From NCBI GenBank assembly GCA_024405585.1, contig JAKSOM010000010.1:1-13836 (forward strand): 13,836 nt of DNA. Reading direction: 5' to 3'. Both the position numbers and the translations under genes were made by a program. Positions 363-13,671 of this stretch are shown here, piece after piece (position 1 is the stretch's first letter; the number at the start of each line of letters is the position of its first letter). Below the pieces are notes generated by a model. That model ran no database searches, had not been told where the DNA came from, and worked only from the letters and a program-made list of their open reading frames with translations. The DNA is from Acidaminococcaceae bacterium (GTDB lineage Bacteria; Bacillota; Negativicutes; Acidaminococcales; Acidaminococcaceae).

Positions 363-956
363 ATGATGGAGTTGTGGAATTGGTTTGTTAAGGGTGGATA
401 CGTTATGTATCCGATTTTGTTTTGTTCCGTGGTAGCTTTTGCTATTGCCGCAGACAGATTGCTGGAGTACGGGCGGAGTTCTTCAGGGGAAGTGTTTTTT
501 GTTCGGTTGAGGGAAAGTTTGGCAGCCGGGCGGCAGGATGAGGTTTTGGAGTTGGCGAACGGTGCCTCGGGGGATGCGGCCAAGCTTACGGGAAAATTTT
601 TGCAACACAGGGATTTGTTGTTGTTGGAGAATGATGCAAATCTGGTTTTGGATGGCTATGAAAAGAATTTGGTTTTCTTGGATATGATTGTGACGGTGTC
701 GCCATTGCTGGGTTTGTTGGGGACCATTTTGGGCATGATTAGTTCTTTCAAGATTTTTGATTTGCGTGCCGGCCAGCCCTTTGCCATTACGGGGGGCATT
801 GGCGAAGCGCTTATCGCTACGGCTTTTGGGCTGATTGTGGCAATTGTGGCTTTGGCTTTGCATGGCGTGTTGCGTTACCGGGCGGAAAAGCTGGGTACGG
901 AGATTAAGGAATGTTGCAATATTCTTGAAACGGCCAAGAGGGAGGGAGTCCTATGA
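363..956 (+). CDS. exbB: ExbB/TolQ/MotA-family proton channel subunit
   Basis: This is the inner-membrane stator of the ExbB-ExbD-TonB motor, which converts proton motive force into energy for outer-membrane transport. The protein is 197 residues with helices near 13-30, 107-129 and 147-168. The typical MotA/TolQ/ExbB core is visible in MIVTVSPLLGLLGTILGM (108-125) and the glycine/alanine-rich segment ITGGIGEALIATAFGL (142-157). I chose the ATG at 363 because AGGGGTGA ends two bases before it. A GTG at 231 would add 44 residues that look non-coding. The stop overlaps the exbD start (ATGA). The neighbouring tonB favours ExbB over TolQ or MotA. Confidence 0.9.
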   Translation: MMELWNWFVKGGYVMYPILFCSVVAFAIAADRLLEYGRSSSGEVFFVRLRESLAAGRQDEVLELANGASGDAAKLTGKFLQHRDLLLLENDANLVLDGYEKNLVFLDMIVTVSPLLGLLGTILGMISSFKIFDLRAGQPFAITGGIGEALIATAFGLIVAIVALALHGVLRYRAEKLGTEIKECCNILETAKREGVL

Positions 957-1363
957 AATTCCGGGAGCGAAAAAAAAGTTTGCCGGCGGTGATGGTGATT
1001 CCCATGATCGACATTATGTTTTTCCTCTTGGTCTTTTTTATGCTCAGCACCATGTATATGACTAATTTGAAGACCGTGGCGGTGAAGCTTGGCGATATCC
1101 AGGGTTCGGCCATTTCCCAGCAAAATGTGGCGTTTGCAGTGTCCATTGACCATGACAATAATTATTTTGTTGGGGATGTGAAGGTGGATTTGAATATTTT
1201 ACGCAATTATGCACAGAAGGAAATCCAGCATAACCCCAATGCCTTTGTGGTGGTGAGGACTGATGTCAACAGTTCCTACAGCGCATTCAACGATTTGGTT
1301 GGGGCATTGAAATCTGTGGGGGTGGCCCGTTTCGGTATTGCTGCCGAGTCGATGGACAAATGA
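953..1363 (+). CDS. exbD: ExbD/TolR-family biopolymer transport protein
   Basis: This is the second subunit of the TonB motor. It has 136 residues with a short basic N-terminus, one transmembrane helix (about 14-36) and a periplasmic domain. The helix carries PMIDIMFFLLVFFM, in which Asp20 matches the essential proton-carrying aspartate of ExbD/TolR. The length is normal for ExbD. Its start overlaps the exbB stop by four bases and its own stop overlaps the tonB start by four bases. Such translational coupling is usual for subunits needed in fixed ratio. Confidence 0.9.
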   Translation: MKFRERKKSLPAVMVIPMIDIMFFLLVFFMLSTMYMTNLKTVAVKLGDIQGSAISQQNVAFAVSIDHDNNYFVGDVKVDLNILRNYAQKEIQHNPNAFVVVRTDVNSSYSAFNDLVGALKSVGVARFGIAAESMDK

Positions 1364-1974
1364 ATTGGTACAGACAACGACTGTTAATTTGTTTCATAGG
1401 TTCCTTGGTTGTCCATGTGTTAGTCCTGGGGTGTGCGTGCGTTGTTTTTAATCCGACGATTTTTTCGGAGACATCCGCAGATATTTATGATGCCGGAGAT
1501 TTGAGCGGCACCTATTTGTCGGAGCCGGTTCGGGAAGCTGATGAAAAGGCGGAGCGGGTGGCACGCCGTTATGTAAGCAAAATTGAGTTTGTAATTTTGA
1601 AGCAGGATGTTGCGGATAAATTGTTCGGACGAACGAATATAATAGCCAGGCAGGTGGATGACCAGAGGGCTAAGGATGCCCGTAAGACATTGCCGGTTAT
1701 TAAGAATCCGGCGGTGATGCCTAAATTGGTTAAGCGTACCAAGATTCGTTATCCGGCAGAGGCCGGCGGAGAGACGGGTTCCGTGGTGGTATGTTTGCTG
1801 GTGGGATATAACGGACGTCCGGAGTATGCTTCTACTGCGGAGTCCAGTGGGAACCGTTTTTTGGATGCGGCTGCGTTGGATGGTTGTATTGATTGGAGGT
1901 TTACGCCGGCCAAGGATTCCAAGGGTCGGTTAGTACGTTGTTTGGTGTATATTCCGGTGCTGGTGGAACCTTAG
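1360..1974 (+). CDS. tonB: TonB-family energy transducer
   Basis: TonB links the ExbBD motor to outer-membrane receptors. The protein has 204 residues with one N-terminal helix (about 8-30) containing Ser15-x3-His19, the spacing of the conserved Ser/His pair in TonB signal anchors. A TonB C-terminal domain follows (about 125-203), recognisable from IRYPAEAGGETGSVVV, the SSGNRFLDAAALDG segment and WRFTPAKDSKGR. The spacer (about 31-120) is charged and lacks the long Pro-Glu/Pro-Lys repeats of E. coli TonB, so the reach across the periplasm may be shorter or differently built. No TonB-dependent receptor is present in the window, so the cargo is unknown. Confidence 0.87.
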   Translation: MNWYRQRLLICFIGSLVVHVLVLGCACVVFNPTIFSETSADIYDAGDLSGTYLSEPVREADEKAERVARRYVSKIEFVILKQDVADKLFGRTNIIARQVDDQRAKDARKTLPVIKNPAVMPKLVKRTKIRYPAEAGGETGSVVVCLLVGYNGRPEYASTAESSGNRFLDAAALDGCIDWRFTPAKDSKGRLVRCLVYIPVLVEP

Positions 1975-1985
1975 GGAGTGTGGGG

Positions 1986-2261
1986 ATGATGGACAGACGA
2001 AGTTTTTTTACCAAGGCCTTTCCCGCTTATGCATATCGGGTCGGGGAACTTTTTGCCGATGAGGCGGGTTTGAGTCGGAAGGGAATAGAGAGAAGTTATT
2101 TTGATTCTTTTGAGAGCGCCTACCCCTTTTTGAGCGAGGTGAGTATGGAAATGCTGTACCAGGCGGCGAAGCAGGTGGGGATTAATCCTGAGGGAATGAC
2201 CAAGATTCAGTTGGCAAAGGCGGTGTATGAGAATAGGGGTAAGGTCTATCATGACGGTTGA
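1986..2261 (+). CDS. Small protein with Tat-motif-like start and Rho_N-like C-terminus
   Basis: I do not recognise this 91-residue protein as a named family. The N-terminus MMDRRSFFTKAF resembles the twin-arginine consensus (RRxFxK), but what follows (PAYAYRVGELFADEAG) is not a hydrophobic signal stretch, so export by Tat is doubtful. Residues 55-83 (MLYQAAKQVGINPEGMTKIQ onward) look like a Rho_N/SAP-type helix-turn-helix fold (L..AAK..GI....MTK..L..A). The start at 1986 has AGGGAG at 1973-1978. The gene sits between tonB and a Cys/His-rich protein, upstream of a real Tat substrate. A role as an adaptor, or as a decoy for Tat-signal binding, is speculation. Confidence 0.72.
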   Translation: MMDRRSFFTKAFPAYAYRVGELFADEAGLSRKGIERSYFDSFESAYPFLSEVSMEMLYQAAKQVGINPEGMTKIQLAKAVYENRGKVYHDG

Positions 2262-2943
2262 TGAGGCATTGACCCAGTCCCTGTTGTTGTTTATGCAAAA
2301 GGGGAAGGGCAACGGGTTGGAATATGTGAGCCGCAGCCACACCGCCGGTATGGGGTGGTATTACTGGTTGCATGGTGTTCCCGGTGTTTATGAAATTGAG
2401 CTGAATGAATTGTACAAGGAGGGTAAGGAAGCGAAGTTTTATTTGCGTTATTACCCGGATACGGAAGAGGAAGTTTTGGAGAATTATTCCGTACAGGAGC
2501 AGATTTTGCGGTTTAACGATCAGTTCTTTAATGACAATGCCATCAGGGAGGAAGACCACGAGATTTGTCCCTGTTGTACGGTCCCGGATATGGAACATTT
2601 GCATGGTGATGGGGAGGGTTGTCATCACCATCATCACAAGGCGGAAACCAACAGAAAAGTGGGCATCCCCATTTTGGCAGAGAAGTTTAATATGAATAAG
2701 AAACTTTATACTATTGGGATGTTATGCGTTAATACCGAGGATGAGGCGGTGAAGCTTTATTTGGACACCATGGAGCGTTTGGTGGAAATTTCTGAAAAAG
2801 GAATCAGGTTTACCCTGAACGGCCAAGATGTGGAGTTGGTTCCGCCTGGAGGCATTGATAGGAATGTGCCGGGCATGGAACTGGGAAAAAGATTTGTCAG
2901 TTTCCTGCAGGAAAAACTGATACCGGTTTTGAACGAAATGTAA
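2251..2943 (+). CDS. Cytoplasmic protein with Cys/His metal-binding cluster, unknown family
   Basis: This 230-residue soluble protein has no signal peptide or membrane helix. Its middle (106-129) is dense in metal ligands: CPCC at 106-109, HLH at 116-118, then Cys124 followed by five histidines (125-129). The flanks look like an ordinary folded protein, with a tyrosine-rich N-terminal half and a helical C-terminal half (150-230). I do not recognise the family. I chose the ATG at 2251, which overlaps the previous gene by 11 bases and has TAGGGGTAAGG just upstream. An ATG at 2227 would add eight residues. Two genes downstream lies a predicted metallo-hydrolase exported folded by Tat, so a metal-delivery or maturation role is plausible but unproven. 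Confidence 0.75.
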   Translation: MTVDEALTQSLLLFMQKGKGNGLEYVSRSHTAGMGWYYWLHGVPGVYEIELNELYKEGKEAKFYLRYYPDTEEEVLENYSVQEQILRFNDQFFNDNAIREEDHEICPCCTVPDMEHLHGDGEGCHHHHHKAETNRKVGIPILAEKFNMNKKLYTIGMLCVNTEDEAVKLYLDTMERLVEISEKGIRFTLNGQDVELVPPGGIDRNVPGMELGKRFVSFLQEKLIPVLNEM

Positions 2944-2976
2944 AAAAATATAAATTTTCAGAAAGGAGGAAGGATC

Positions 2977-3105
2977 ATGGAGAACACCGAAGCAAAGGGA
3001 TTTTGCTGGCCAGGGTTTGCCGCCGGATTTGTGGGCGGTGCTATTCTTTTCGTTTTGACAATTTATTTTGTTAAAGCGACAATGTTCTCGTTGACAGCTG
3101 CTTGA
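2977..3105 (+). CDS. Small single-helix membrane peptide (42 aa)
   Basis: A short gene is preceded by a near-perfect ribosome binding site (GAAAGGAGGA, 2961-2970) six bases before the ATG. The 42-residue product has a polar start (MENTEAKGFCWPG), one predicted membrane helix (about 12-34) with small-residue packing motifs (GFAAGFVGGAIL), and a short tail ending SLTAA. It lies 33 bases after the Cys/His protein and 19 bases before the hydrolase, so it is probably co-translated with both. The strong site and helix packing motif suggest a small subunit of a membrane complex, perhaps of the large membrane protein at 4229-5509. No family is recognised. Confidence 0.68.
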   Translation: MENTEAKGFCWPGFAAGFVGGAILFVLTIYFVKATMFSLTAA

Positions 3106-3124
3106 ATTTAGGAGGTGAAGAAAA

Positions 3125-4213
3125 ATGGCTGTAAATCGTAGGGATTTTTTGAAAGGTCTGGCAGTGGGCGGGACCACCGGCTACTTTGCAATGGCCGGTT
3201 TGTCTTCCACAATTTTGAAGGACACGTTTTTGCCCAATGAACCTGTAGGGGATGTTGAAATTGGTGAAGTTAAGAGCATCAAATGCACTGTAGTTTCCGA
3301 GACCAGCTGGTTCAACAACAAGGTGTTGGTGGGTGATATGATGAAGGCCGGCGGCCTGCTGGTTAACCAATACATCATTCCTTGGACCCACAAAGGTGTT
3401 GCAGAAGGTTACAATGGGGATAACTCCGGTGGTTATTGCACATTGATTGATGTGGAATTTTTGGATGGAACCAAAAAGAAAATTTTGTTTGATTGCGGCT
3501 GGAACACGGCTTGGATGGACACTTGCCTGCAACGTGAGGGCGTGGACAAGATGTTGGAGAAGGACCAAATTGATTTGTTCTATATTACCCACGAACATTT
3601 CGACCATTATTGGGGTGTTGAATCCGTGCTGAAGCACTGCAACGATATGCCCATTGCCGTTCCCAAGGGATTTTATCAGGAAGGTTATGATCTGCTTTGC
3701 AACAAAGGGCATTGGGAGGTTCCCGGCGTTAAGAACGACTATCCTGCCAAGGGACAGGTCACTACCCGTGAATCCGGCAAGGTGCACAAGATTTTCCCGG
3801 GCGTAGCTTCCATTACCTTCGATTCTTCCATCATTACCCGTGTCAAGGGTGAGCAGGCCCTGATTTTCAATATCAAGGATAAGGGTTTGGCCATTGTTAC
3901 CGGTTGCTGCCATATGGGCATTATTTCGCTGCTGCAGGAAGTTCGCCATCGTGTAAAAGGCGGCGAAAAGATTTATGCAATCCAGGGCGGGTTACATATC
4001 AGTCCCTTTGAGGATTGGGATCCCCAGTATGATGATTTAATTTTGGCTATTCCCAAGTACGGCATTGAAGTAATGGGTTGCAACCACTGCACCGGTTATT
4101 CGACTGCGGAAAAGATGATTAAAGCCGGCCTCCCTGTAGTTCAAGGTACCGCCCGTTTCAAGAGCAAAAAGAAATTGTACCTCGGTAATGGCGACCAGAT
4201 TGTGTTCGGTTGA
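3125..4213 (+). CDS. Tat-exported metallo-beta-lactamase-fold hydrolase (COG1237-like)
   Basis: The 362-residue protein starts with a clear Tat signal (NRRDFLKGLAVGG, then a hydrophobic stretch and AMA at 22-24 as likely cleavage site). The mature part shows the metallo-beta-lactamase fold: HEHFDH at 156-161, the CCH triplet ending at His263, GGLH ending at His291 and NHCTG at 320-324. The CCH, GGLH and HCTG pattern matches the family related to dihydropterin ribofuranosyl-aminobenzene phosphate synthase (COG1237), which is usually cytoplasmic. Tat export implies the enzyme folds and takes up metal inside the cell. The ribosome binding site is perfect (AGGAGGTGA), and arginine codons are mainly CGT (6 of 8), which suggests high expression. 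The substrate is unknown. Confidence 0.85.
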   Translation: MAVNRRDFLKGLAVGGTTGYFAMAGLSSTILKDTFLPNEPVGDVEIGEVKSIKCTVVSETSWFNNKVLVGDMMKAGGLLVNQYIIPWTHKGVAEGYNGDNSGGYCTLIDVEFLDGTKKKILFDCGWNTAWMDTCLQREGVDKMLEKDQIDLFYITHEHFDHYWGVESVLKHCNDMPIAVPKGFYQEGYDLLCNKGHWEVPGVKNDYPAKGQVTTRESGKVHKIFPGVASITFDSSIITRVKGEQALIFNIKDKGLAIVTGCCHMGIISLLQEVRHRVKGGEKIYAIQGGLHISPFEDWDPQYDDLILAIPKYGIEVMGCNHCTGYSTAEKMIKAGLPVVQGTARFKSKKKLYLGNGDQIVFG

Positions 4214-4228
4214 TAGGAGGGTGTTGTA

Positions 4229-5509
4229 ATGAATACATTAAGGAATCATATGTGGCTTGAAAGCCGTCTCTTTGAGGATAAAATGTCACAACCAGCCCGT
4301 GGTATTTTAGGTGTGTTGGTATCGTTCATTATGTTTTACGTTCTTTGGTGGGTGTTCATGGATGTACGTGGCATTATGAAGTGGTACACTCCCCAATACG
4401 GGTATATGTACATTCGTTGGATTTTGATTGTTGCCATTTGGCAGGCTTATATTTTCAATTTCTGGCCTTTTAGCCTGGAATGGCGCGAAAGCAAGCATCC
4501 GTTGGTAACCGGTGGCACCTTGATTCTGGTGAACTTCGCAGTGGTCGGGATTGTTATTTGGGGCTTCTTCTATAATTTCTTGGGCAAGTTCTCCATTCCG
4601 TACCTGAGCGTTGATCAATTGGAGGGATTGGGCATGACCCGTTTCTATGCCCGTGAGTATTCTTCCTTGGCGATTCTTATGTTTGCTGCCATTGCTTCCT
4701 GGTTGAGTCCGATTGTTCCTGTTTGCTTTGGTAATCATCCTTGGCAAGGCATGAAGCAACCTGCACGTGGCATCACCGTATTTATGGTGACGTTCTTTAT
4801 GTCCGTAATGTTCTTCTTCTGCCTGATGCATCCCCATTACCATGTATTGTTCTGGCCGTTCCAAGAATATGCGGCAGCCTATCCTTGGTGGTATGATTTT
4901 GCTCATACTCTTCACGGCAACTATAATGTCGGTTGGGTAATGTGCGGTACAGTGGCAATTTGGTTGTTGGAGTTAACTTTTGACCGTTATCCATTCCGTC
5001 TGATTCGCAACAAGATTCTTCGCGGGGTTGTTGGTTTCGTGGGCGTTTGGGCATTTGCAATGTTGTTGTTCTATATGTTCAACTTCGTTCAAGATTTGTC
5101 CTGGGGTCCTGCAGTAGACGGGGCAAAACGTATTTATGCTCCCGATTGGCGTTACCTGCATAGCGGTGAATTGGCGATTATGGCTCTGATACCTGCCATG
5201 ATTCTGAACTTCTATTTTGATAATGGTCCTAAAAAATACAGTCCTGCTGTAAATATTGCCATTCGTTTGGCGATTATTGCCGTAGCAACTTGTGTTTTCC
5301 ATTTCTTGTATTACAAATTCAGTCCCGGATTGTTGGGTACTCAGGCAGGTTACAGCCATCCGCAACAATTCCCCATGGCGCCTGGCATTCTTTTCATTTG
5401 CACCATGTTGTTCCATAATTGGTTTATGGATTTTTGGCCCGGCAAGAAACGTACAGGCAATCGTGAGGTTGAATTGGACGAAGAAGGGGAAGAGATTGGA
5501 GTTCAGTGA
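4229..5509 (+). CDS. Aromatic-rich polytopic membrane protein made of repeated hairpins, unknown family
   Basis: This 426-residue integral membrane protein has about ten predicted helices and a charged C-terminal tail. It appears built from repeated two-helix units, each introduced by a loop with aromatic/acidic residues and proline: LFEDKMSQPARG (14-25), FNFWPF (76-81), CFGNHPWQGMKQPARG (166-181), TFDRYPF (250-256), YFDNGPKKY (329-337) and FMDFWPGKK (399-407). QPARGI is exactly repeated at 21-26 and 177-182. About 20 tryptophans and several histidines near membrane boundaries (HPHYH at 201-205) stand out, and could bind a cofactor or aromatic ligand. 14 of 18 arginine codons are CGT. It starts 15 bases after the hydrolase, behind TAGGAGGGTG. 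I do not recognise the family; a transporter or membrane anchor is possible. Confidence 0.82.
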   Translation: MNTLRNHMWLESRLFEDKMSQPARGILGVLVSFIMFYVLWWVFMDVRGIMKWYTPQYGYMYIRWILIVAIWQAYIFNFWPFSLEWRESKHPLVTGGTLILVNFAVVGIVIWGFFYNFLGKFSIPYLSVDQLEGLGMTRFYAREYSSLAILMFAAIASWLSPIVPVCFGNHPWQGMKQPARGITVFMVTFFMSVMFFFCLMHPHYHVLFWPFQEYAAAYPWWYDFAHTLHGNYNVGWVMCGTVAIWLLELTFDRYPFRLIRNKILRGVVGFVGVWAFAMLLFYMFNFVQDLSWGPAVDGAKRIYAPDWRYLHSGELAIMALIPAMILNFYFDNGPKKYSPAVNIAIRLAIIAVATCVFHFLYYKFSPGLLGTQAGYSHPQQFPMAPGILFICTMLFHNWFMDFWPGKKRTGNREVELDEEGEEIGVQ

Positions 5510-5516
5510 CTTTTAT

Positions 5517-5545
5517 TTGCAAAAAGGTTTCTGATAAGTTATAAT
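5517..5545 (+). promoter_or_regulatory. Predicted promoter of the tat operon
   Basis: The -35 element TTGCAA (5517-5522) and -10 element TATAAT (5540-5545) are exactly 17 bases apart, the same arrangement as at the ctsR promoter. Transcription would start near 5552, which places the hairpin at 5555-5583 at the very 5' end of the transcript. Confidence 0.65.
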
Positions 5546-5554
5546 ACATAAGAC

Positions 5555-5590
5555 GGGCTGAACAGGCGGGGCCTGTTCAGCCCTATTTTT
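5555..5590 (+). terminator. Hairpin with T-tract between the hydrolase operon and tat genes
   Basis: A perfect 13-base inverted repeat (GGGCTGAACAGGC at 5555-5567, mirrored at 5571-5583) encloses a three-base loop and is followed by TATTTTTT. This is a good intrinsic terminator for the operon ending at 5509. It also lies downstream of the tat promoter, so it may act as a stabilising 5' hairpin or attenuator for tatBAC. Confidence 0.75.
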
Positions 5591-5601
5591 TGGAGAAGGA
5601 A

Positions 5602-5874
5602 ATGAGTATTGGTTTTGGTGAAATTATCATGATATTGTGTGTGGCCTTTTTTGTGGTTGGCCCCAAGGATATGCCCAAGGTTGCAAGGGCCCTTGCACGG
5701 GGTGTAAAGAAGCTACGCAATATGATGAAAAGCATCACTGAAGAATTTGAAGAAGAAATTGACATTGAGGATACAAGAAAAACTTTGTCCTCCGCCAATG
5801 AGGAATATAAGCGGGTGCAGGAACAGGTTAACAAGCTGAACAACGTGAAAGATGTTGTTGACTTGGTGAAATAG
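5602..5874 (+). CDS. tatB: Twin-arginine translocase subunit TatB-like
   Basis: This is a Tat subunit thought to form the substrate-receptor complex with TatC. The 90-residue protein has a short N-terminal helix (about 4-20) with Glu7 and the hinge VVGPKDMPKVAR. The Gly-Pro hinge followed by an amphipathic helix is typical of TatB. A charged, probably coiled region (about 40-90, with EEFEEEIDIED) follows, longer than in a typical TatA. I chose the ATG at 5602 because GGAGAAGGA (5592-5600) precedes it. A TTG at 5590 would sit in the terminator T-tract. TatA and TatB are hard to separate by sequence alone. Confidence 0.8.
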   Translation: MSIGFGEIIMILCVAFFVVGPKDMPKVARALARGVKKLRNMMKSITEEFEEEIDIEDTRKTLSSANEEYKRVQEQVNKLNNVKDVVDLVK

Positions 5875-5914
5875 GTGCCCCGGCTTATTATGGGATTGTG
5901 TAAAGGAGATTGAA

Positions 5915-6103
5915 ATGAGATTAGGCGCAACAGAACTACTCTTGATTTTGGCCATTGCTTTCCTGGTTTTCGGAGGGTCAAAACTTACCGGCATCGGCAA
6001 GGCGTTGGGGACCAGTATCCGTGAGTTTAAGCAGGAAGTAAAATCCACGGACAAGGAAGAGAAGAAGGAAGAGAACGATGGAGCAGACACCACAGGAAAA
6101 TGA
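5915..6103 (+). CDS. tatA: Twin-arginine translocase subunit TatA
   Basis: TatA is the pore-forming or membrane-weakening subunit that polymerises to pass folded proteins. The 62-residue protein shows the standard layout: membrane helix (about 5-20), FGGSKLTGIGKALG hinge and amphipathic helix, then a charged lysine/glutamate tail. The LVFGGSKLTGIGKALGTSIREF type of hinge is a TatA hallmark. AAGGAGAT lies five bases before the ATG. The 3' end overlaps tatC by 26 bases in another frame, which suggests coupled translation. Confidence 0.9.
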   Translation: MRLGATELLLILAIAFLVFGGSKLTGIGKALGTSIREFKQEVKSTDKEEKKEENDGADTTGK

Positions 6104-6797
6104 GCTGGCTCTCTATGAAAAACCGGTTGGCGAACATCTGCAGGAATTGCGCAAACGGCTCCTGTGGTGTTTAGTTTTTGTACTGGTGGCTTTTTTTGGG
6201 ATTGTCACCAATTGTTCGGAACAGTTGGTGGAGTTAATCAGCTCTCCAGTAAAAGCTCAGGGGATTCATTTTATTTATGTCGGTTTGGCAGAGGCATTAG
6301 TCGCCCAGCTTAAAGTAAGTTTCATTGCTGCTGTTGTTGTGGCAAGCCCTTTTGTCATCTGGCATATCTGGTCTTTCATTAAGCCGGCGTTGTACGACAA
6401 CGAAAAAAAATATGTTTGGTACAATGCATTCGGTTACGGGGTGGTATTCCTGTCGGCAATTACATTTTTTGTCTATGTGGGGCAGGGTATTGCAACACCC
6501 ATGTTGAGCATCAGTGATTATGTCAGTTTTCTTTTTGGTTTTGTCATTCCCTTTGGCTTGGTTTTCGAAATGCCTATCATCTGTTATGTATTGTCCAGAT
6601 TGGGGCTGGTTACCGTCCAAACGATGGTTGCCATGCGTAAATATGTTGTATTGGTGATTTTTGTGGTTGCGGCGTTTTTGACACCGCCGGATGTGTTGAG
6701 CCAGGTATTGATGGCTTTACCCATGTTGGTATTGTATGAAGTCGGTATATTGGTTGTAAAACTGACTGTGAAGAACAAAGAGCAGAATCAAGCTTGA
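6078..6797 (+). CDS. tatC: Twin-arginine translocase receptor subunit TatC
   Basis: TatC is the six-helix membrane protein that binds the twin-arginine signal. The 239-residue sequence contains the N-terminal signal-binding motif HLQELRKRLL (20-29, Glu23 matching E. coli Glu15), FIKPALYDNEKK with Glu109 (matching Glu103), VFEMPII with Glu164 and FLTPPDV with Asp205, so the key residues are intact. Length is normal. It begins inside tatA with a ribosome binding site GGAAGAG. The only evident Tat substrate in the window is the hydrolase at 3125-4213, encoded just upstream. Confidence 0.94.
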   Translation: MEQTPQENELALYEKPVGEHLQELRKRLLWCLVFVLVAFFGIVTNCSEQLVELISSPVKAQGIHFIYVGLAEALVAQLKVSFIAAVVVASPFVIWHIWSFIKPALYDNEKKYVWYNAFGYGVVFLSAITFFVYVGQGIATPMLSISDYVSFLFGFVIPFGLVFEMPIICYVLSRLGLVTVQTMVAMRKYVVLVIFVVAAFLTPPDVLSQVLMALPMLVLYEVGILVVKLTVKNKEQNQA

Positions 6798-7014: not shown

Positions 7015-7413
7015 ATGAGGAATATGGCGGATAGCGTAGCGGATAGTATTGAGAATTTTATTTTGGATGAATTGATGAAGCAGGCGGAGGCCATGGTGCA
7101 GAGGAATGAGCTTGCCCAGACCCTGAATTGCGCCCCCAGCCAAATCAGTTATGTGTTGAACACCCGTTTCACTCCGGAGCGGGGGTTTGTGGTGGAGAGC
7201 CGCCGGGGAGCGGGGGGCTTTGTGCGAATTATGAAGCAGGAGTCGGATCCAAATCCCACCAGTTTGGAGTTGTTGAAGCTTTTGCATTTGCGGGGCCGGG
7301 TGAGCGGCAGGGAGGCCCGGCTTTTGGATTATGTGTTGCGGAGTATGGAGGGCAGCGAGGCGGCGAAGCAGAGGTTTTTGGAGAATGCGGTTAAGGCAAT
7401 GGAAGGCCGGTGA
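7015..7413 (+). CDS. ctsR: CtsR-family stress gene repressor
   Basis: CtsR represses clp genes under normal conditions and releases DNA on heat or protein stress. The 132-residue protein has the winged-helix domain with [20 protein letters not shown] (37-56) and the wing [14 protein letters not shown] (59-72), close to the B. subtilis protein. Two differences are visible. The glycine-rich loop that acts as heat sensor in B. subtilis (GGGG) is GAGG here, and the C-terminal dimerisation region is about 20 residues shorter than usual. GAGATGAGG lies upstream of the ATG, and the promoter carries CtsR-like half-sites. The stop overlaps the clpC start (TGATG). Confidence 0.88.
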
Positions 7414-10013
7414 TGAGGATGTTGTGTCAGCAGTGTCATAAGAAGCAGGCCATCATGCATATGGTGATGGTTTCTGCAGGGAAGAAGATAGACAAGTGGT
7501 TGTGCGGCGATTGCGCCAAGGAGTATATGCCTTCGGAGTTGGGGCACGGGATGCCAGTGGATCCCAGGGGGCTGGTGGAGCATTTGGTGCATAAGATTAG
7601 TCAGGAAGTTATGAGCAGCGGTGAGGATTTTGAGACCCCGGCCAAGGGGAATCCCACCATGACCCAGCTCATGGCCCAGATTATGTCCGCCGCCGCAGGC
7701 AAGGCCTGCGATTTGAAGGCGGAGCATATCGGCACGGAGCATTTGCTTTGGGCCATTTTGCAGTGCAAGGATTCCCAGGGTTTCGCCCTTTTGGCGGCCA
7801 TGGGGGTGTTGGACAGGTTGGGCAAGCAGTTGGAGGAGTGGCTCAGCGTTGGTTCTAACGGGAGTGTGGCTCCGGCTTTGAGCGAGCGGGCGGCCAAGGC
7901 CCTGAGCGAGGGCGCCGCCAGCGCCAAGAAGCACGGTTTCAGTTTGATGAATTCCGCCTTTTTGGTGGAGGGCATCCTTTTGGCAGGGGACGGTGCGGCT
8001 TACAGCATTCTGAATAAGTTGGGGATTGAGTATAAGCATGTGCATGAGTATTTGGATATGCTGAGCCGGGTGGAGGCGGAGAAGCGCCGTGAGAATGCCG
8101 ATGAGAAGGGCGGCAAGAAAGGTCTGCACAGTTTCCTTGACGAGTTGATTTTTGCGGACAGCGATGACGACGGCACCAGGATTGAGAATCCGGAGCAGAT
8201 TTTGGCCCAGTATGGCAGGAATCTGAATCAGGCGGTGCAGGAGGGGCAGTCCGACCCGGTGATTGGCAGGGAGAAGGAAGTGGAGCGGCTGATGCAGATC
8301 CTTTGCCGCCGTACCAAGAACAATCCGGTGCTGATCGGCGAGGCGGGGGTTGGCAAGACCGCTGTGGCGGAGGGGCTGGCCCAAAAGATTGTGAAGGGTG
8401 ATGTGCCGGATTTTCTGAAGGACAAGGTGGTTTTCAGTTTGGAGATGGGCATGCTGCTGGCCGGGGCCAAGTACCGGGGCGAGTTTGAGGAGCGGCTGGC
8501 GGAGGTCATCGATGCTTTGGAGAGCAAGGGGAATATCATTCTTTTTATAGACGAGATACATACCATTATCGGTGCGGGGAGCGTGCAGGGCAGTTTGGAT
8601 GCGGCCAATATGCTGAAGCCCGCCCTGGCCCGTGGCAGGATGCAGATTATCGGGGCCACCACCACCAATGAGTACCGCAAGTATTTTGAGCGGGATGCGG
8701 CTTTGGAGCGGAGGTTCCAGCCGGTGCTGGTGGAGGTGCCGGATGTGGCCAAGGCCAAGGATATGTTGCTGGGTTCCCGCAGCCGTTATGAAAAATTCCA
8801 CAATTTGGAGATTACCGCCGAGGCCATCAGGGCGGCGGTGGAGTTGAGCGACAGGTATATTATGGACAGGAATCTGCCGGATAAGGCCATTGATGTCATT
8901 GATGAGGCCTGCGCCCGGGTGCGGATGGGGGGCAGGGCCAGGAAGGTGGAAGGTCAGGATGTGGCTGAGGTGGTTTCCAATTGGACAGGCATTCCTGTGG
9001 GTAAAATCAGCGAGGATGAAACCAAGCGGCTGCTGAAGTTGGAGAGCCGTCTGCACGAGCGGATTATTGGTCAGGACCGGGCGGTGGAAACTTTGGCGAA
9101 GGCCATCCGCCGTAGCCGCAGCGGGCTGAAGGATGCCAAGCGGCCCGTGGGTGCCGTCCTGTTTTTGGGGCCCACCGGGGTGGGCAAGACGGAATTGGCC
9201 AAGACCCTGGCGGAGGAACTTTTCGGCGATGAGAGGGCCATGCTCCGCTTTGATATGAGCGAATATATGGAGAAGCACACCGCTTCCCGTCTGTTGGGGG
9301 CGCCTCCCGGGTATGTGGGTTATGAGGAGGGGGGCCAGCTGACGGAGCAGGTGCGGAAGCATCCCTATTCCGTGGTGCTGTTGGATGAGATTGAAAAGGC
9401 CAGTCCGGACATTTTCAATGTGCTGTTGCAGATTATGGAGGACGGACGGCTGACGGACGGTCAGGGCCGCACTGTGGATTTCCGCAATGTGGTGCTGATT
9501 ATGACTTCCAATGCGGGGGCCCAAAAGTTGATGAACAGCAATCCTTTGGGCTTCACCCCTTCCAAGGAGACGGAGTTGCAGAACAGGAAGGATTTGGTGA
9601 TGGGTGAGGTGCGGCACCTTTTCCGTCCGGAGTTCCTGAACCGTCTGGACGAGATTGTGGTCTTTGACCCCTTGGGCGACAAGGAACTGAAGAAGATTGT
9701 GAAACTGCTTTTGGCGGATTTGAACAGGCGGATGGCGGAGACCGGGTTCAGCGTGGAGTTGAAGCCCAAGGCCCTGGAGAAGGTGCTGGCAGAAGGCCGC
9801 AACGAGAAATACGGCGCCCGCCCCCTGCGTAGGGCTTTGCGTAAACTGATTGAGGATCCCTTGAGCGATTTGATTCTGGCGGGAAAATTCCGCAAGGGGG
9901 ACAGGATTGTGGCCAATGTGAAGAAGGACCAGGTTGTTTTCAGCCGGGTGCCGGTGACGGAAATCAGTATTGAGATGAAGCCGGTGCTGGCCAAGGTGCG
10001 AAGCAAGAGATGA
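7413..10013 (+). CDS. clpC: ClpC-type AAA+ unfoldase with N-terminal McsA/ClpE-type zinc finger and no M-domain
   Basis: This is an ATP-driven unfoldase expected to feed proteins to ClpP. The 866 residues run: zinc finger CxxC-x22-CxxC (Cys5, 8, 31, 34) as in McsA and ClpE; double Clp N-domain (about 83-217); D1 with GEAGVGKT (309-316), pore loop KYRGEFE and ILFIDEIH (376-383); D2 with GPTGVGKT (586-593), GYVGYEEGG and VVLLDEIE (654-661); and NPLGF (710-714), the likely ClpP-binding loop. Between IDEA (496-499) and [10 protein letters not shown] (517-526) only some 17 residues lie where B. subtilis ClpC has an M-domain with UVR motif. No mcsA or mcsB precedes it, so the finger may be an absorbed McsA part. 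I chose ATG 7413 over GTG 7410. Confidence 0.92.
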
Positions 10014-11399: not shown

Positions 11400-13019
11400 A
11401 TGTATAAATTTCCTTTTCATGTGGTGAAATTAATAAAGGCCTTGGAGAGCCACGATTATGAGGCCTATGTGGTGGGGGGCGCGGTCAGGGACATTCTTTT
11501 GGGCAAAAACCCCCATGATTACGATATTGCCACCAGCGCCACTCCTGAGGATGCCATTGGGGTGGCCAAGGAGATGGGGTGGCAGACCATTGACAAATTG
11601 GGCAAGAATTTCGGCACCATCATTATTGTTGTGAATGGGGTGGGGATGGAGGTCACCACCTTCCGGGGTGAACGCTACGACCGGGACAGCCACCGGCCGG
11701 CGGAGATTTGGAAGGCACGGAATTTGCAGGAGGATTGCAAACGCCGTGACTTCACCATCAATGCCATGGCCATGGATTTGCGGGGGATTCTCTATGATTT
11801 CCACGGCGGCAGGGAGGACCTGAAGAAGGGCATTCTGAGGACGGTGGGGAAGGCCAAGCAGCGTTTTGAAGAGGATGCCTTGAGGATGTTCCGGGCCTGC
11901 CGTTTTGTGGCGGAGTTGGGTTTTGACTATGTGGACGAAAAGGGCAAAACTATTTCCTTTGGTGACCCCAAGAGTGAATATTTTATGCTCAAGTGCCCCG
12001 TGTTCGACACTTCCCGTTGCTCCGGACTTTCCCTGGACAGGGTGAAGGCGGAGGTGGAAAAACTCATCTGCGGCGATTACGCCGGCAAGGGTCTCACCAT
12101 GCTGGTGGGCAGCGGCCTGGCGGATGCCCGGTGTTATATTAAGAAGAACGGTGAAATCAGCGTCATAGACATTTTGCCGGAACTTAGGCGGCTGGTGGGG
12201 CTGAAGCAGAACCCCAAGCATCATTTTTATGATGTGTGGGAGCATACCCTGAGGGCTATGGACAACAGTCCGGAAAAACTGGTGATTCGCTGGGCGCTTC
12301 TGTTGCATGATTTGGGCAAGGGACTTCCCAATGTACGGGACCTGAACAAGGAAGGCCAGCCCAGGGATGCGGGGCATGAAAATGAAAGCGCTCGCATGAC
12401 CGCAGAGATTATCAAAAGGTTCAATTATGCCCCCAAGCTGAACAGATATATCACCTTTTTGGTGGCCCAGCACATGCGGTTTGCCGCTTTTCTCAGGGAT
12501 GACAAAAACGGCATGAAGATAGAACATTCCATGTTGCACTGGCTCAGGGATGTGGTGAGCCAAAACATTTTCCGTCACGAGGAGGATATGGTGGCGGGTT
12601 GCACTGATTTGGTGAAGGTGTACCTGGCGGATATGGGGGCTACCGTGGCGGGCAGAGACCACAGGATTATGGAGGAGGGCCGGGAGATTGGGGCCCATCT
12701 CATCCAACTGGCACGGACGAAAATGCCCATCTCCACCGGAGATTTGAACCTGGCGGAAACGGACTTCAAGAAAATTCCGGAGGGCGTAAATTTGCGTAAC
12801 GCCCTGGCTTATCTGGTCAAGCGGGTGCAGGCGGGGGACCTGGCCAATGAACACCGGGCCCTGATTCAGGCACTGCTGAATAAATATGAAAGGATTCAAA
12901 GGGAGAAAAATGGAGCAAGAAAAGGGAAAACTAATAAAAATAATTCTGCATCTGGTGGTGCTCGTCGTTCTCGTAGGCGGGTTGGCACTGGTGCTGCACC
13001 CGGGCTTGCTGAACCTTGA
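11400..13019 (+). CDS. cca: CCA tRNA nucleotidyltransferase / poly(A) polymerase family with HD domain
   Basis: Members add or repair the CCA end of tRNA, or in some lineages add poly(A). The 539-residue protein shows GGAVRD (26-31), the catalytic DYDIAT (Asp40/Asp42), RRDFTINAMA (115-124), the nucleotide-recognition helix EEDALRMFRACRF (157-169), and an HD phosphohydrolase domain (EHTL at 281-284, LLHDLGKG at 301-308). The start follows the radA stop with no gap. The last 35 or so residues are low-complexity and basic (ARRSRRRVGTG). They are encoded in the 110-base overlap with the next gene and may be a neutral extension after loss of an earlier stop. CCA-adding versus poly(A) function cannot be told from sequence alone. 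Confidence 0.88.
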   Translation: MYKFPFHVVKLIKALESHDYEAYVVGGAVRDILLGKNPHDYDIATSATPEDAIGVAKEMGWQTIDKLGKNFGTIIIVVNGVGMEVTTFRGERYDRDSHRPAEIWKARNLQEDCKRRDFTINAMAMDLRGILYDFHGGREDLKKGILRTVGKAKQRFEEDALRMFRACRFVAELGFDYVDEKGKTISFGDPKSEYFMLKCPVFDTSRCSGLSLDRVKAEVEKLICGDYAGKGLTMLVGSGLADARCYIKKNGEISVIDILPELRRLVGLKQNPKHHFYDVWEHTLRAMDNSPEKLVIRWALLLHDLGKGLPNVRDLNKEGQPRDAGHENESARMTAEIIKRFNYAPKLNRYITFLVAQHMRFAAFLRDDKNGMKIEHSMLHWLRDVVSQNIFRHEEDMVAGCTDLVKVYLADMGATVAGRDHRIMEEGREIGAHLIQLARTKMPISTGDLNLAETDFKKIPEGVNLRNALAYLVKRVQAGDLANEHRALIQALLNKYERIQREKNGARKGKTNKNNSASGGARRSRRRVGTGAAPGLAEP

Positions 13020-13671
13020 AAAGGCGGAGGAAGGTGCTCCCCTGACGGCCCAGCTGCAGGATTTTCCGGATGCCAACGTGCCCAATTCGCCTTATTTTGC
13101 CAAGGTGGATATTTACAATATGACCAGCAAGGGTGACAGATTGGTGCTGCCCTATTTCAAAACCCGTCAGCAAAGGGCATTCTACACCTGCGCCCCGGTG
13201 GCGGCCATGATGGTGGTGGACTATTACTTGGGTGAATGTAAGGAAGATGAGCTGGAAGTGGCCAAAATTATGGGCACCAGCAGCAATGCGGGCACAACTA
13301 TCGGCGGAGTGGTGAAATATTTTGAACACCTGGGCTGGGATGTGGTTTCCAGCGGCAGCAAATCCGCCCCCGGCAGTTATACGGAGTTCATCAAATGGAT
13401 AAAACAGAATCTGCAACGGAAAACCCCGGTGCTAGTGGAAAACGTGGATTGGGGCGGACACTACCGGGTAATCATCGGTTATGACGGCATGGGGACGGAA
13501 ACGGCCAGTGACGATGTGCTGTTCCTGGCGGACCCCTTCGATACATCCGACCATTGGCGGGACGGTTACAATGTGACCAGTGCGGAGCGGTTCTACTATA
13601 TGTGGTTTGACCACAAATTGTTCGGCAAAAACGAACAGGACAGATTATATGTCATCGCCAAACCGAAATAA
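12910..13671 (+). CDS. Membrane-anchored C39-like cysteine peptidase
   Basis: The 253-residue protein has an N-terminal signal anchor (about 9-34) and an extracytoplasmic papain-like domain of the C39 peptidase type. The likely catalytic set is visible: Gln87 or Gln88 before Cys94 in FYTCAPVAAMMVVDYY, His184 in GGHYRVIIGYD and Asp208 in LADPFDT. No ABC transporter or leader-peptide substrate is nearby, so it is probably not a bacteriocin processing enzyme; targets are unknown. I chose ATG 12910 because AGGGAGAA (12898-12905) precedes it. ATG 12886 would add eight residues. It overlaps the CCA-family gene by 110 bases in a different frame. Confidence 0.83.
   Translation: MEQEKGKLIKIILHLVVLVVLVGGLALVLHPGLLNLEKAEEGAPLTAQLQDFPDANVPNSPYFAKVDIYNMTSKGDRLVLPYFKTRQQRAFYTCAPVAAMMVVDYYLGECKEDELEVAKIMGTSSNAGTTIGGVVKYFEHLGWDVVSSGSKSAPGSYTEFIKWIKQNLQRKTPVLVENVDWGGHYRVIIGYDGMGTETASDDVLFLADPFDTSDHWRDGYNVTSAERFYYMWFDHKLFGKNEQDRLYVIAKPK

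Follow-up and report, generated by a model that had tools for sequence, protein, structure and literature searches.

As judged from sequence, the conserved unit in this region is a core of five parts: a predicted ten-helix membrane protein (MP), a Tat-signal metallo-hydrolase (MBL), the protein p230, a one-helix peptide, and the small protein p91. Together these look like a real, undescribed cell-envelope machine, with four of the five parts lacking a family name. The core module has no described relative in the searches that we made, and we do not claim that its mechanism is proven. Our preferred reading, to which we give somewhat less than an even chance, is that the core is a conserved inner-membrane enzyme complex in which MBL, already carrying its metal, is exported in folded form and acts on the conserved outer face of MP, with TonB as an optional energizer. 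If true, this would add an envelope enzyme that has its own metal loader, along with a case of TonB motors repeatedly recruited to one partner.

The eleven-gene locus and its conserved core

In the window (the whole 13,836-nucleotide stretch that was analyzed), the core sits among eleven genes on the plus strand between positions 363 and 6797, in the order exbB-exbD-tonB-p91-p230-tm42-MBL-MP-tatB-tatA-tatC. All reading frames are open, and intergenic spacing ranges from -26 to 92 bp, including gaps of -4 and -4 for exbB-exbD and exbD-tonB. Because the identical order is found in both other genomes of the window's genus (L024 and L025, the latter with its exbB cut by the contig end), the arrangement is more than chance. 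An earlier note on this DNA had reported the eleven co-directional genes, as we find them, and knew of no described system with this set; none turned up in our searches, which for the literature covered open-licence papers and returned no description pointing to this module. The window had no Rfam match, no tRNA, and no match for plasmid carriage.

Stretches encoding relatives of MP numbered 161 in the genome collection, many in organisms that we take to be anaerobes, including Phascolarctobacterium. We analyzed the best 80 of these 161 as loci, many of them short-flanked, leaving more distant relatives uncounted. Across several phyla, MBL adjoins MP in 79 of the 80, and the remaining locus starts inside MP. 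The two genes are thus together in all 79 loci that can be judged, in agreement with the earlier proposal that they belong together. In 76 of the best 80, a protein with the p230 domain is encoded no more than 3 kb away. Both counts speak for the enzyme complex. In addition, pairwise distances of MP and MBL are correlated (r = 0.93 across 78 loci and 0.82 across 58 clade II loci), which argues for shared inheritance rather than contact. The MP tree held 79 of the 80 loci plus the window, with the cut locus L042 left out.

The neighborhood comparison supports a real module with a conserved core, but not the idea that all eleven genes form one system. Among the best 80 of 161, the MBL-MP pair is usually found apart from exb/tonB (64 loci) and apart from tat (66 loci), the outcome that the earlier note had named as refuting its proposal. 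Where flanks reach a full 6 kb (45 loci), exbB is missing in 33 and tat in 39.

Motor and Tat genes beside the core

The motor genes are exbB (363-956; PF01618, 85 bits), exbD (953-1363; PF02472, 76 bits), and tonB (1360-1974; TonB_C PF03544, 38 bits, and also over the cut-off of TIGR01352 at 44 bits). As in an ExbB-ExbD-TonB energizer, all three subunits are present in one operon with Pfam domains over cut-off. The NCBIfam equivalogs for ExbB, TolQ, ExbD, and TolR were all below cut-off on the window proteins, so the names ExbB and ExbD rest on Pfam and the adjoining tonB. This tonB is the lower-scoring copy; a second, higher-scoring one lies on a different contig (G000:C194).

Motor genes recur near the core, which bears out the link between TonB and the hydrolase-membrane protein pair that had been suggested before. 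Specifically, exbB, exbD, and tonB occur on the same strand within 6 kb in 16 of the best 80 loci, compared with about 1.8 expected MotA/ExbB-type matches (density, 92 in 54.5 Mb), a rough comparison in that related loci are not independent. L093, from Shewanella algicola, is one locus of the exb/tonB form. Furthermore, module ExbB proteins fall into two clades, that of the window being modI (SH-aLRT 99). A quick tree of 43 rows rejected the union of the two (AU p = 0.013), and with it a single origin of module ExbB, so the motor was probably joined to the core at least twice. Sampling drew on 92 matches in 16 genomes, 30 of which were fetched as loci; L131 and L141 had no usable match, and L125, L140, and L142 were omitted as copies of module rows.

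The module differs from the classical energizer in that its ExbB proteins form their own clades and that neither the module nor the window showed a gene for an outer-membrane receptor. One receptor match lies elsewhere in the window's genome (G000). In ten clade II genomes with a module exbB, no receptor match was found within about 27 kb on the same contig; contigs were matched by coordinates, some are shorter than 27 kb, the nearest match is in G223, and for G240 the search covered the plug only. Neither G220 nor G222 has a receptor-barrel match. With one plug match in G220, the case for a receptor-free TonB shrank to G222 alone, a metagenome-assembled genome of unknown completeness that carries the module and has zero plug or barrel matches. 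It is quite improbable, in our estimation, that the module ExbB-ExbD-TonB drives the MP-MBL complex or another envelope partner directly, with no classical receptor, though this would make it a novel type of envelope enzyme machine powered by protons.

The scarcity of receptors also weighs on the nutrient-uptake idea of the earlier note, in which TonB would import a compound, periplasmic MBL would trim it, and MP would take up the product. The recurrence and dual recruitment of Exb/TonB fit this idea, as do two gene clusters near the core that would suit an organic ligand, C4 (GntR/FCD, from a single scanned member) and C3 (PAS-like, though under the cut-off in both members scanned), each in 28 of the best 80 loci. 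A weak Ureide_permease match, the best among 20 MP relatives (2 members, E 0.0097), would suit a transporter as well, and to that extent speaks against the enzyme complex. Yet the window MP matched no Pfam or NCBIfam family at E up to 1, transporter families included. Its JGI label, "AAT transporter" (amino acid transporter), which is also attached to a distant sister family, found no support in our family searches. We consider nutrient uptake rather unlikely.

On the other side of the core lie tatB (5602-5874; TIGR01410, 64.8 bits, cut-off 56.5), tatA (5915-6103; TatA_B_E PF02416, 68 bits), and tatC (6078-6797; TIGR00945, 182 bits); the TatA_B_E model matched twice in the window, at 37 and 68 bits. 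By genes, then, the locus holds TatA, TatB, TatC, and a twin-arginine cargo, and the claim of a Tat-signal hydrolase beside Tat genes stands. As in a minimal Tat translocase with linked cargo, the tat genes adjoin a Tat-signal gene, the difference being that the cargo here, MBL, belongs to a conserved membrane module. Tat genes are nearby in 14 of the best 80 loci. The 92-bp gap between MP and tatB contains a TATAAT box followed by a hairpin that resembles a terminator, with a T-run and a 13-bp stem that includes 9 G-C pairs. Box and hairpin together occupy 5517-5583 on the plus strand, and both recur in L024 and L025. On this basis, the eleven genes are probably two transcription units.

That hairpin, along with the many loci that lack Tat and TonB genes, is what one would expect if these genes were accidental neighbors of the core. 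However, among 59 genomes of the bacterial family, 10 bear MP, and tatC adjoins it in all 10; in 9 of them it is the only tatC found, as it is in the window's genome (81% complete). With 16 loci carrying exbB-exbD-tonB against the roughly 1.8 expected (the loci being related), we regard accidental proximity as very unlikely. The mostly sole tatC and the repeated recruitment of ExbB instead speak for the enzyme complex. In the family at large, tat beside some twin-arginine gene is a recurring pattern: of 9 other regions read, 7 have such a gene no more than 3 kb from tatC.

The hydrolase, its putative metal loader, and the membrane protein

MBL (3125-4213) is over the cut-offs of Lactamase_B (PF00753, 32 bits) and the TAT signal model TIGR01409 (20.1 versus 16.7) and below those of the Pfam models TAT_signal (19.1 of 22.7) and Lactamase_B_2 (26.9 of 27). 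It is related in sequence to PDB entries 2p4z, 7dck, and 3h3e, hydrolases of the metallo-beta-lactamase fold that we take to be COG1237-type, from which it differs by its Tat signal, a longer N-terminal part, and MP as its usual neighbor. In an alignment of 26 sequences (window plus 25 of 80 loci), 78 positions are invariant, including the six metal-site residues H156, H158, D160, H161, H263, and H291, so the HxHxDH motif and two further histidines of the metallo-beta-lactamase fold are in place. The first arginine of the twin-arginine motif is invariant and the second is kept in at least 90%. Two genomes of the same class have MBL without the standard MP, which speaks against the enzyme complex. 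G127 has p91-p230-MBL with a Tat signal and only a distant MP relative on a different contig, and in G131 neither a Tat signal nor MP was seen. Matches to defense models were weak (ZorA to ExbB, E 0.005; LmuA and RTasMBL to MBL, 20 and 18 bits); we rejected a defense system, including a Zorya-type motor with ZorA/ZorB and effectors.

Under the enzyme-complex reading, p230 would act in the cytosol, either loading MBL with its metal or checking that metal. The window p230 (2251-2943) has a Cys/His-rich loop (CPCC...HHHHH) and, by eye, no signal peptide. It aligns with the N termini of clade II CobW-GTPase fusions (hhalign 99.4%, E 1.2e-21); all three such proteins scanned join the p230 domain to a GTPase with PF02492, PF07683, and CVCC, shared with CobW-type metallochaperones such as YjiA and ZigA (presumably COG0523). 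Proteins of the p230 type exceed 550 residues in 45 clade II loci. Unlike CobW proteins, the clade II GTPase carries an unnamed N-terminal domain, and the two scanned were under the NCBIfam cut-offs of ZigA, CobW, and PRK11537. Pfam found no GTPase domain in p230 or other module proteins of the window, which counts against the enzyme complex, as do the 64 loci without nearby Exb/TonB. Upstream, p91 (1986-2261) has an RRxFF start, no signal-peptide core by eye, and a 97% match to the clade II p91 profile.

The CVCC-bearing GTPase and Cys/His-rich p230 loops could alternatively point to a module for acquiring or distributing a metal such as zinc, with MBL as one metal-dependent part. In L026, znuA and an ABC-3 permease gene follow the module tonB, and a Fur-family gene is immediately upstream in L037, with the same cluster in L043. 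But, as far as the clustering of neighboring genes shows, Fur is found there in these two loci only, and the two GTPases fell below the named cut-offs. Zinc uptake in particular is weakened by L041, which carries glycogen-type genes (named by eye) where L026 has znu. We judge metal trafficking to be unlikely.

After export by Tat, whose genes adjoin MBL in some lineages, the folded, metallated enzyme would dock on MP, and together they may convert one specific small substrate; where present, ExbB-ExbD-TonB would energize the supply of that substrate, or of metal, through the outer membrane. MP (4229-5509) has ten hydropathy peaks, in line with the roughly ten helices first noted. Like p91, p230, and tm42, it matched no Pfam or NCBIfam family over cut-off, leaving MBL as the only matched core part. 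Of its loop residues, 55 are conserved in 97% or more of 77 rows (window plus 76 of 120 proteins among the matches listed, 385 found), and 43 of these lie in five odd loops. The odd loops are probably periplasmic, since they carry about 0.07 K+R per residue versus 0.17 in the four even loops. Invariant His, Glu, Asp, and Arg crowd these loops, which would form the docking face. The conserved odd loops and MBL metal site, together with fusions of p230 to CobW GTPase and of a tm42-like helix to MP, speak for the enzyme complex. A conserved, probably periplasmic face adjoining a hydrolase would also suit a joint action in which MP and MBL modify a lipid or quinone of the envelope, with TonB as a general helper only. 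Profile searches found neither a known family nor a solved relative of MP, and we hold this alternative to be distinctly unlikely.

The description of MP as a repeat protein needs qualification. Within MP the signal is weak (best hairpin pair, 36%). Between MP and the distant sister family, which also has ten hydropathy peaks, corresponding hairpins agree at 96, 96, and 97% for 2, 3, and 4, whereas 1 and 5 (28 and 1%) fail to match. Comparing hairpins within the sister family gives about 87 to 92% for the pairs 1-2 and 2-3 and no more than 27% for any other pair. A further alignment (A4) combined one locus protein with 33 of 51 listed.

Finally, the one-helix peptide tm42 (2977-3105) has a counterpart in all 19 clade I loci examined. 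In a comparison of an 18-row small-helix profile (near copies L030 and L043 omitted) with 25 MP tails passing a motif and length filter, it matched the extra C-terminal helix of clade II MP (hhalign 94%, score 35.8; controls at most 19.0). The clade II arrangement thus resembles a fusion of the one-helix peptide to MP.

An undescribed core within an eleven-gene locus

Our results confirm that eleven co-directional genes occupy positions 363-6797 of the forward strand, as the earlier note reported. The gene order is exbB-exbD-tonB-p91-p230-tm42-MBL-MP-tatB-tatA-tatC, and domain searches agree in finding ExbB, ExbD, TonB_C, a metallo-beta-lactamase-fold protein with a Tat signal (MBL), TatB, TatA, and TatC. 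For p91, p230, the one-helix peptide tm42, and the 426-residue membrane protein (MP), nothing rose over the cut-off for any Pfam or NCBIfam family. The window is one entire contig of a genome that is 81% complete. The note correctly called the locus unusual. The full eleven-gene set is an assembly specific to the lineage, built around an undescribed core (MP, MBL, p230, the one-helix peptide, and p91).

A genome collection scanned with an MP alignment yielded 161 stretches with a relative, from which the best 80 loci were kept. Going by record titles, they belong to Acidaminococcaceae and other Bacillota, to Desulfovibrionales and further former Deltaproteobacteria, to Alphaproteobacteria, Shewanella, Campylobacterota, and Deferribacteraceae, to a Spirochaetia MAG, and to additional groups; MAGs are numerous among them, and their taxon labels may be wrong. 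The hydrolase and membrane protein were correctly proposed to be a pair: in 79 of these 80 loci, MBL is encoded no more than 400 bp from MP and in the same orientation, and the exception (L042) starts inside MP. A p230-domain protein was found less than 3 kb from MP in 76 of the 80 and in all 57 with full flanks, the four loci without it (L042, L087, L088, and L096) being short-flanked. Searches with tblastn placed p91 in 42 of the 80, a minimum given its short length. Across 78 loci, pairwise distances of MP and MBL were correlated (r = 0.93).

While MBL adjoins MP in every case that can be judged, the converse fails. In the window's class, 14 of 200 genomes encode an MBL of module type (E up to 1e-40) and 11 encode MP (E up to 1e-3). 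One of the three lacking MP, G033, has a locus broken off by a contig end. The other two carry MBL without a standard MP: G127 has p91-p230-MBL and only a distant MP relative on a separate contig, and G131 has an MBL without a Tat signal and no MP that we could see. An MP-less p91-p230-MBL locus in a class genome (L144, 9497-11846) could tell the role of MBL apart from that of MP.

MBL has PDB relatives (2p4z, 7dck, and 3h3e), and 78 positions are invariant in 26 module MBLs, including H156, H158, D160, H161, H263, and H291. By eye, the aligned signals mostly end in an AxA-like motif in clade I of the MP tree and have no such end in clade II. In some clade II loci (L064, 3645-4040; L102, 12632-13009; L068, 12708-13379), the gene after MBL looks like one for a small lipoprotein, with an apparent internal doubling in L068.

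For MP, a search for a PDB relative found none, and the best Pfam match among 20 members was Ureide_permease (2 of 20, E = 0.0097). Homologs number 385, and several among the 120 listed are labelled "AAT family amino acid transporter" by JGI. The hydropathy profile of MP has ten peaks. At a threshold of at least 97% of 77 rows, 43 of the 136 residues in the five odd loops are conserved, against 12 of the 67 in the four even ones. Lysine and arginine are more abundant in the even loops, so the conserved side of MP probably faces the periplasm. A distant 364-residue family, reached via G127, is related to MP over 357 columns (99.0%, E = 2.6e-18) and also has ten hydropathy peaks; three of five hairpins match their MP counterparts well (96-97%), hairpins 1 and 5 do not, and no family name was found for it either. 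This second ten-helix family, represented in G127 by L146 (1099-2193), has WP-type loop motifs, and the same JGI label appears on several members.

Two clades and their fused forms

The MP tree, built by a quick method, contains a 20-row group that includes the window (clade I) and a 60-row group (clade II), with L044 on a long branch at the base of clade II, a placement that carries a warning. The usual clade I order is p91-p230-small helix-MBL-MP, with p91 after MP instead in five loci. In clade II it is p91-MP-MBL-p230, and a p230-type gene comes first in the Rhodospira/Roseospira group.

The p230-type protein exceeds 550 residues in 45 clade II loci, and all three clade II proteins scanned have a CobW GTPase and CobW_C domain C-terminal to the p230 part; the window's p230 has a Cys/His-rich loop instead. 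Short and clade II forms match as profiles (99.4%, E = 1.2e-21). All 19 clade I loci examined have a one-helix peptide between p230 and MBL. Its profile scores higher against the additional helix at the C-terminus of clade II MPs (94%, score 35.8) than against ten MP windows (at most 19.0) or twenty shuffles (12.1 or less). The analysis shows that the parts are linked, fused, and conserved and which families they belong to, and the clade II fusions suggest physical contact between the parts. In a possible mechanism, p230 would load metal into MBL, which would be exported folded and would dock on MP, with TonB supplying energy.

TonB and Tat genes beside the core

In 16 of the 80 loci (6 in clade I, 10 in clade II), MP has exbB, exbD, and tonB all nearby in its own orientation, and exbB is near MP in 12 of 45 loci with full 6-kb flanks. 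The exb/tonB label requires nine changes on the MP tree. In the ExbB tree, seven clade I module ExbBs share one branch (support 99) inside a larger group (support 90) that also contains seven further ExbBs from the family, and ten clade II module ExbBs form a separate branch (support 99). A single clade of all 17 was rejected (AU p = 0.013). The simplest reading is that the motor was recruited at least twice, although this tree of short proteins was made by a quick method and calls for caution. Clade II module TonBs, aligned without that of L090, end in a KYQY-type motif in eight of nine and KYQF in the ninth. Away from this locus, the genome of the window encodes another tonB, which scores better, and a single receptor. 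L031 has two exbB-exbD-tonB sets: one belongs to the module, and the other accompanies a receptor gene upstream of it. G222, a MAG of unknown completeness, has the module motor and no barrel or plug matches.

tatC is near MP in 14 of the 80 loci, 13 in clade I plus L042, which is absent from the tree. The 59 family genomes covered include 10 with MP and 38 with tatC; of the 49 that lack MP, 28 have tatC. tatC adjoins MP in all ten MP-bearing genomes and is the sole tatC found in nine; G102 has a second. We read nine other tatC regions (eight sites in seven MP-less genomes and the second G102 site). Tat genes adjoining cargo are a recurring pattern across the family, since by eye another twin-arginine gene lies less than 3 kb from tatC in seven of the nine (L104, L105, L107, and L109 to L112); L106 is a near miss and none was seen within that distance in L108. 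Named by eye, these twin-arginine genes beside the small Tat sets encode flavodoxin-like or other proteins.

Intergenic gaps in the eleven-gene set are short. The 92-bp MP-tatB interval contains a TATAAT box, then a terminator-like hairpin with a T-run, and both recur in the other two genomes from the genus (box by eye), where the stem shows a single paired change, also read by eye. Because of this recurring hairpin, tatBAC is probably transcribed separately in the genus. Under the same rule, no hairpin was found in five of seven other loci examined, and L028 and L041 had weaker candidates.

Neighboring genes and regulators

Downstream lie ctsR, a Clp ATPase gene, radA (named by eye), and cca. 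In the Clp ATPase (7410-10013), the Clp_N domain is preceded by a CxxC...CxxC stretch, which we take to resemble a fused McsA-type zinc finger. A C39-like peptidase open reading frame (12886-13671) shares 134 bases with the end of cca in a different frame, and its real start may be later.

Regulators near the module, identified partly by eye, are of GntR/FCD, PAS-like, sigma-54, Rrf2, and Fur types and do not agree on a single common signal. Those of PAS/sigma-54 type (by eye; L033, 6262-7551, and relatives) have a cysteine cluster in the PAS part. Chemoreceptor-like genes, also named by eye, lie inside or beside the module in L054 (10058-12109) and L102 (6581-8665).
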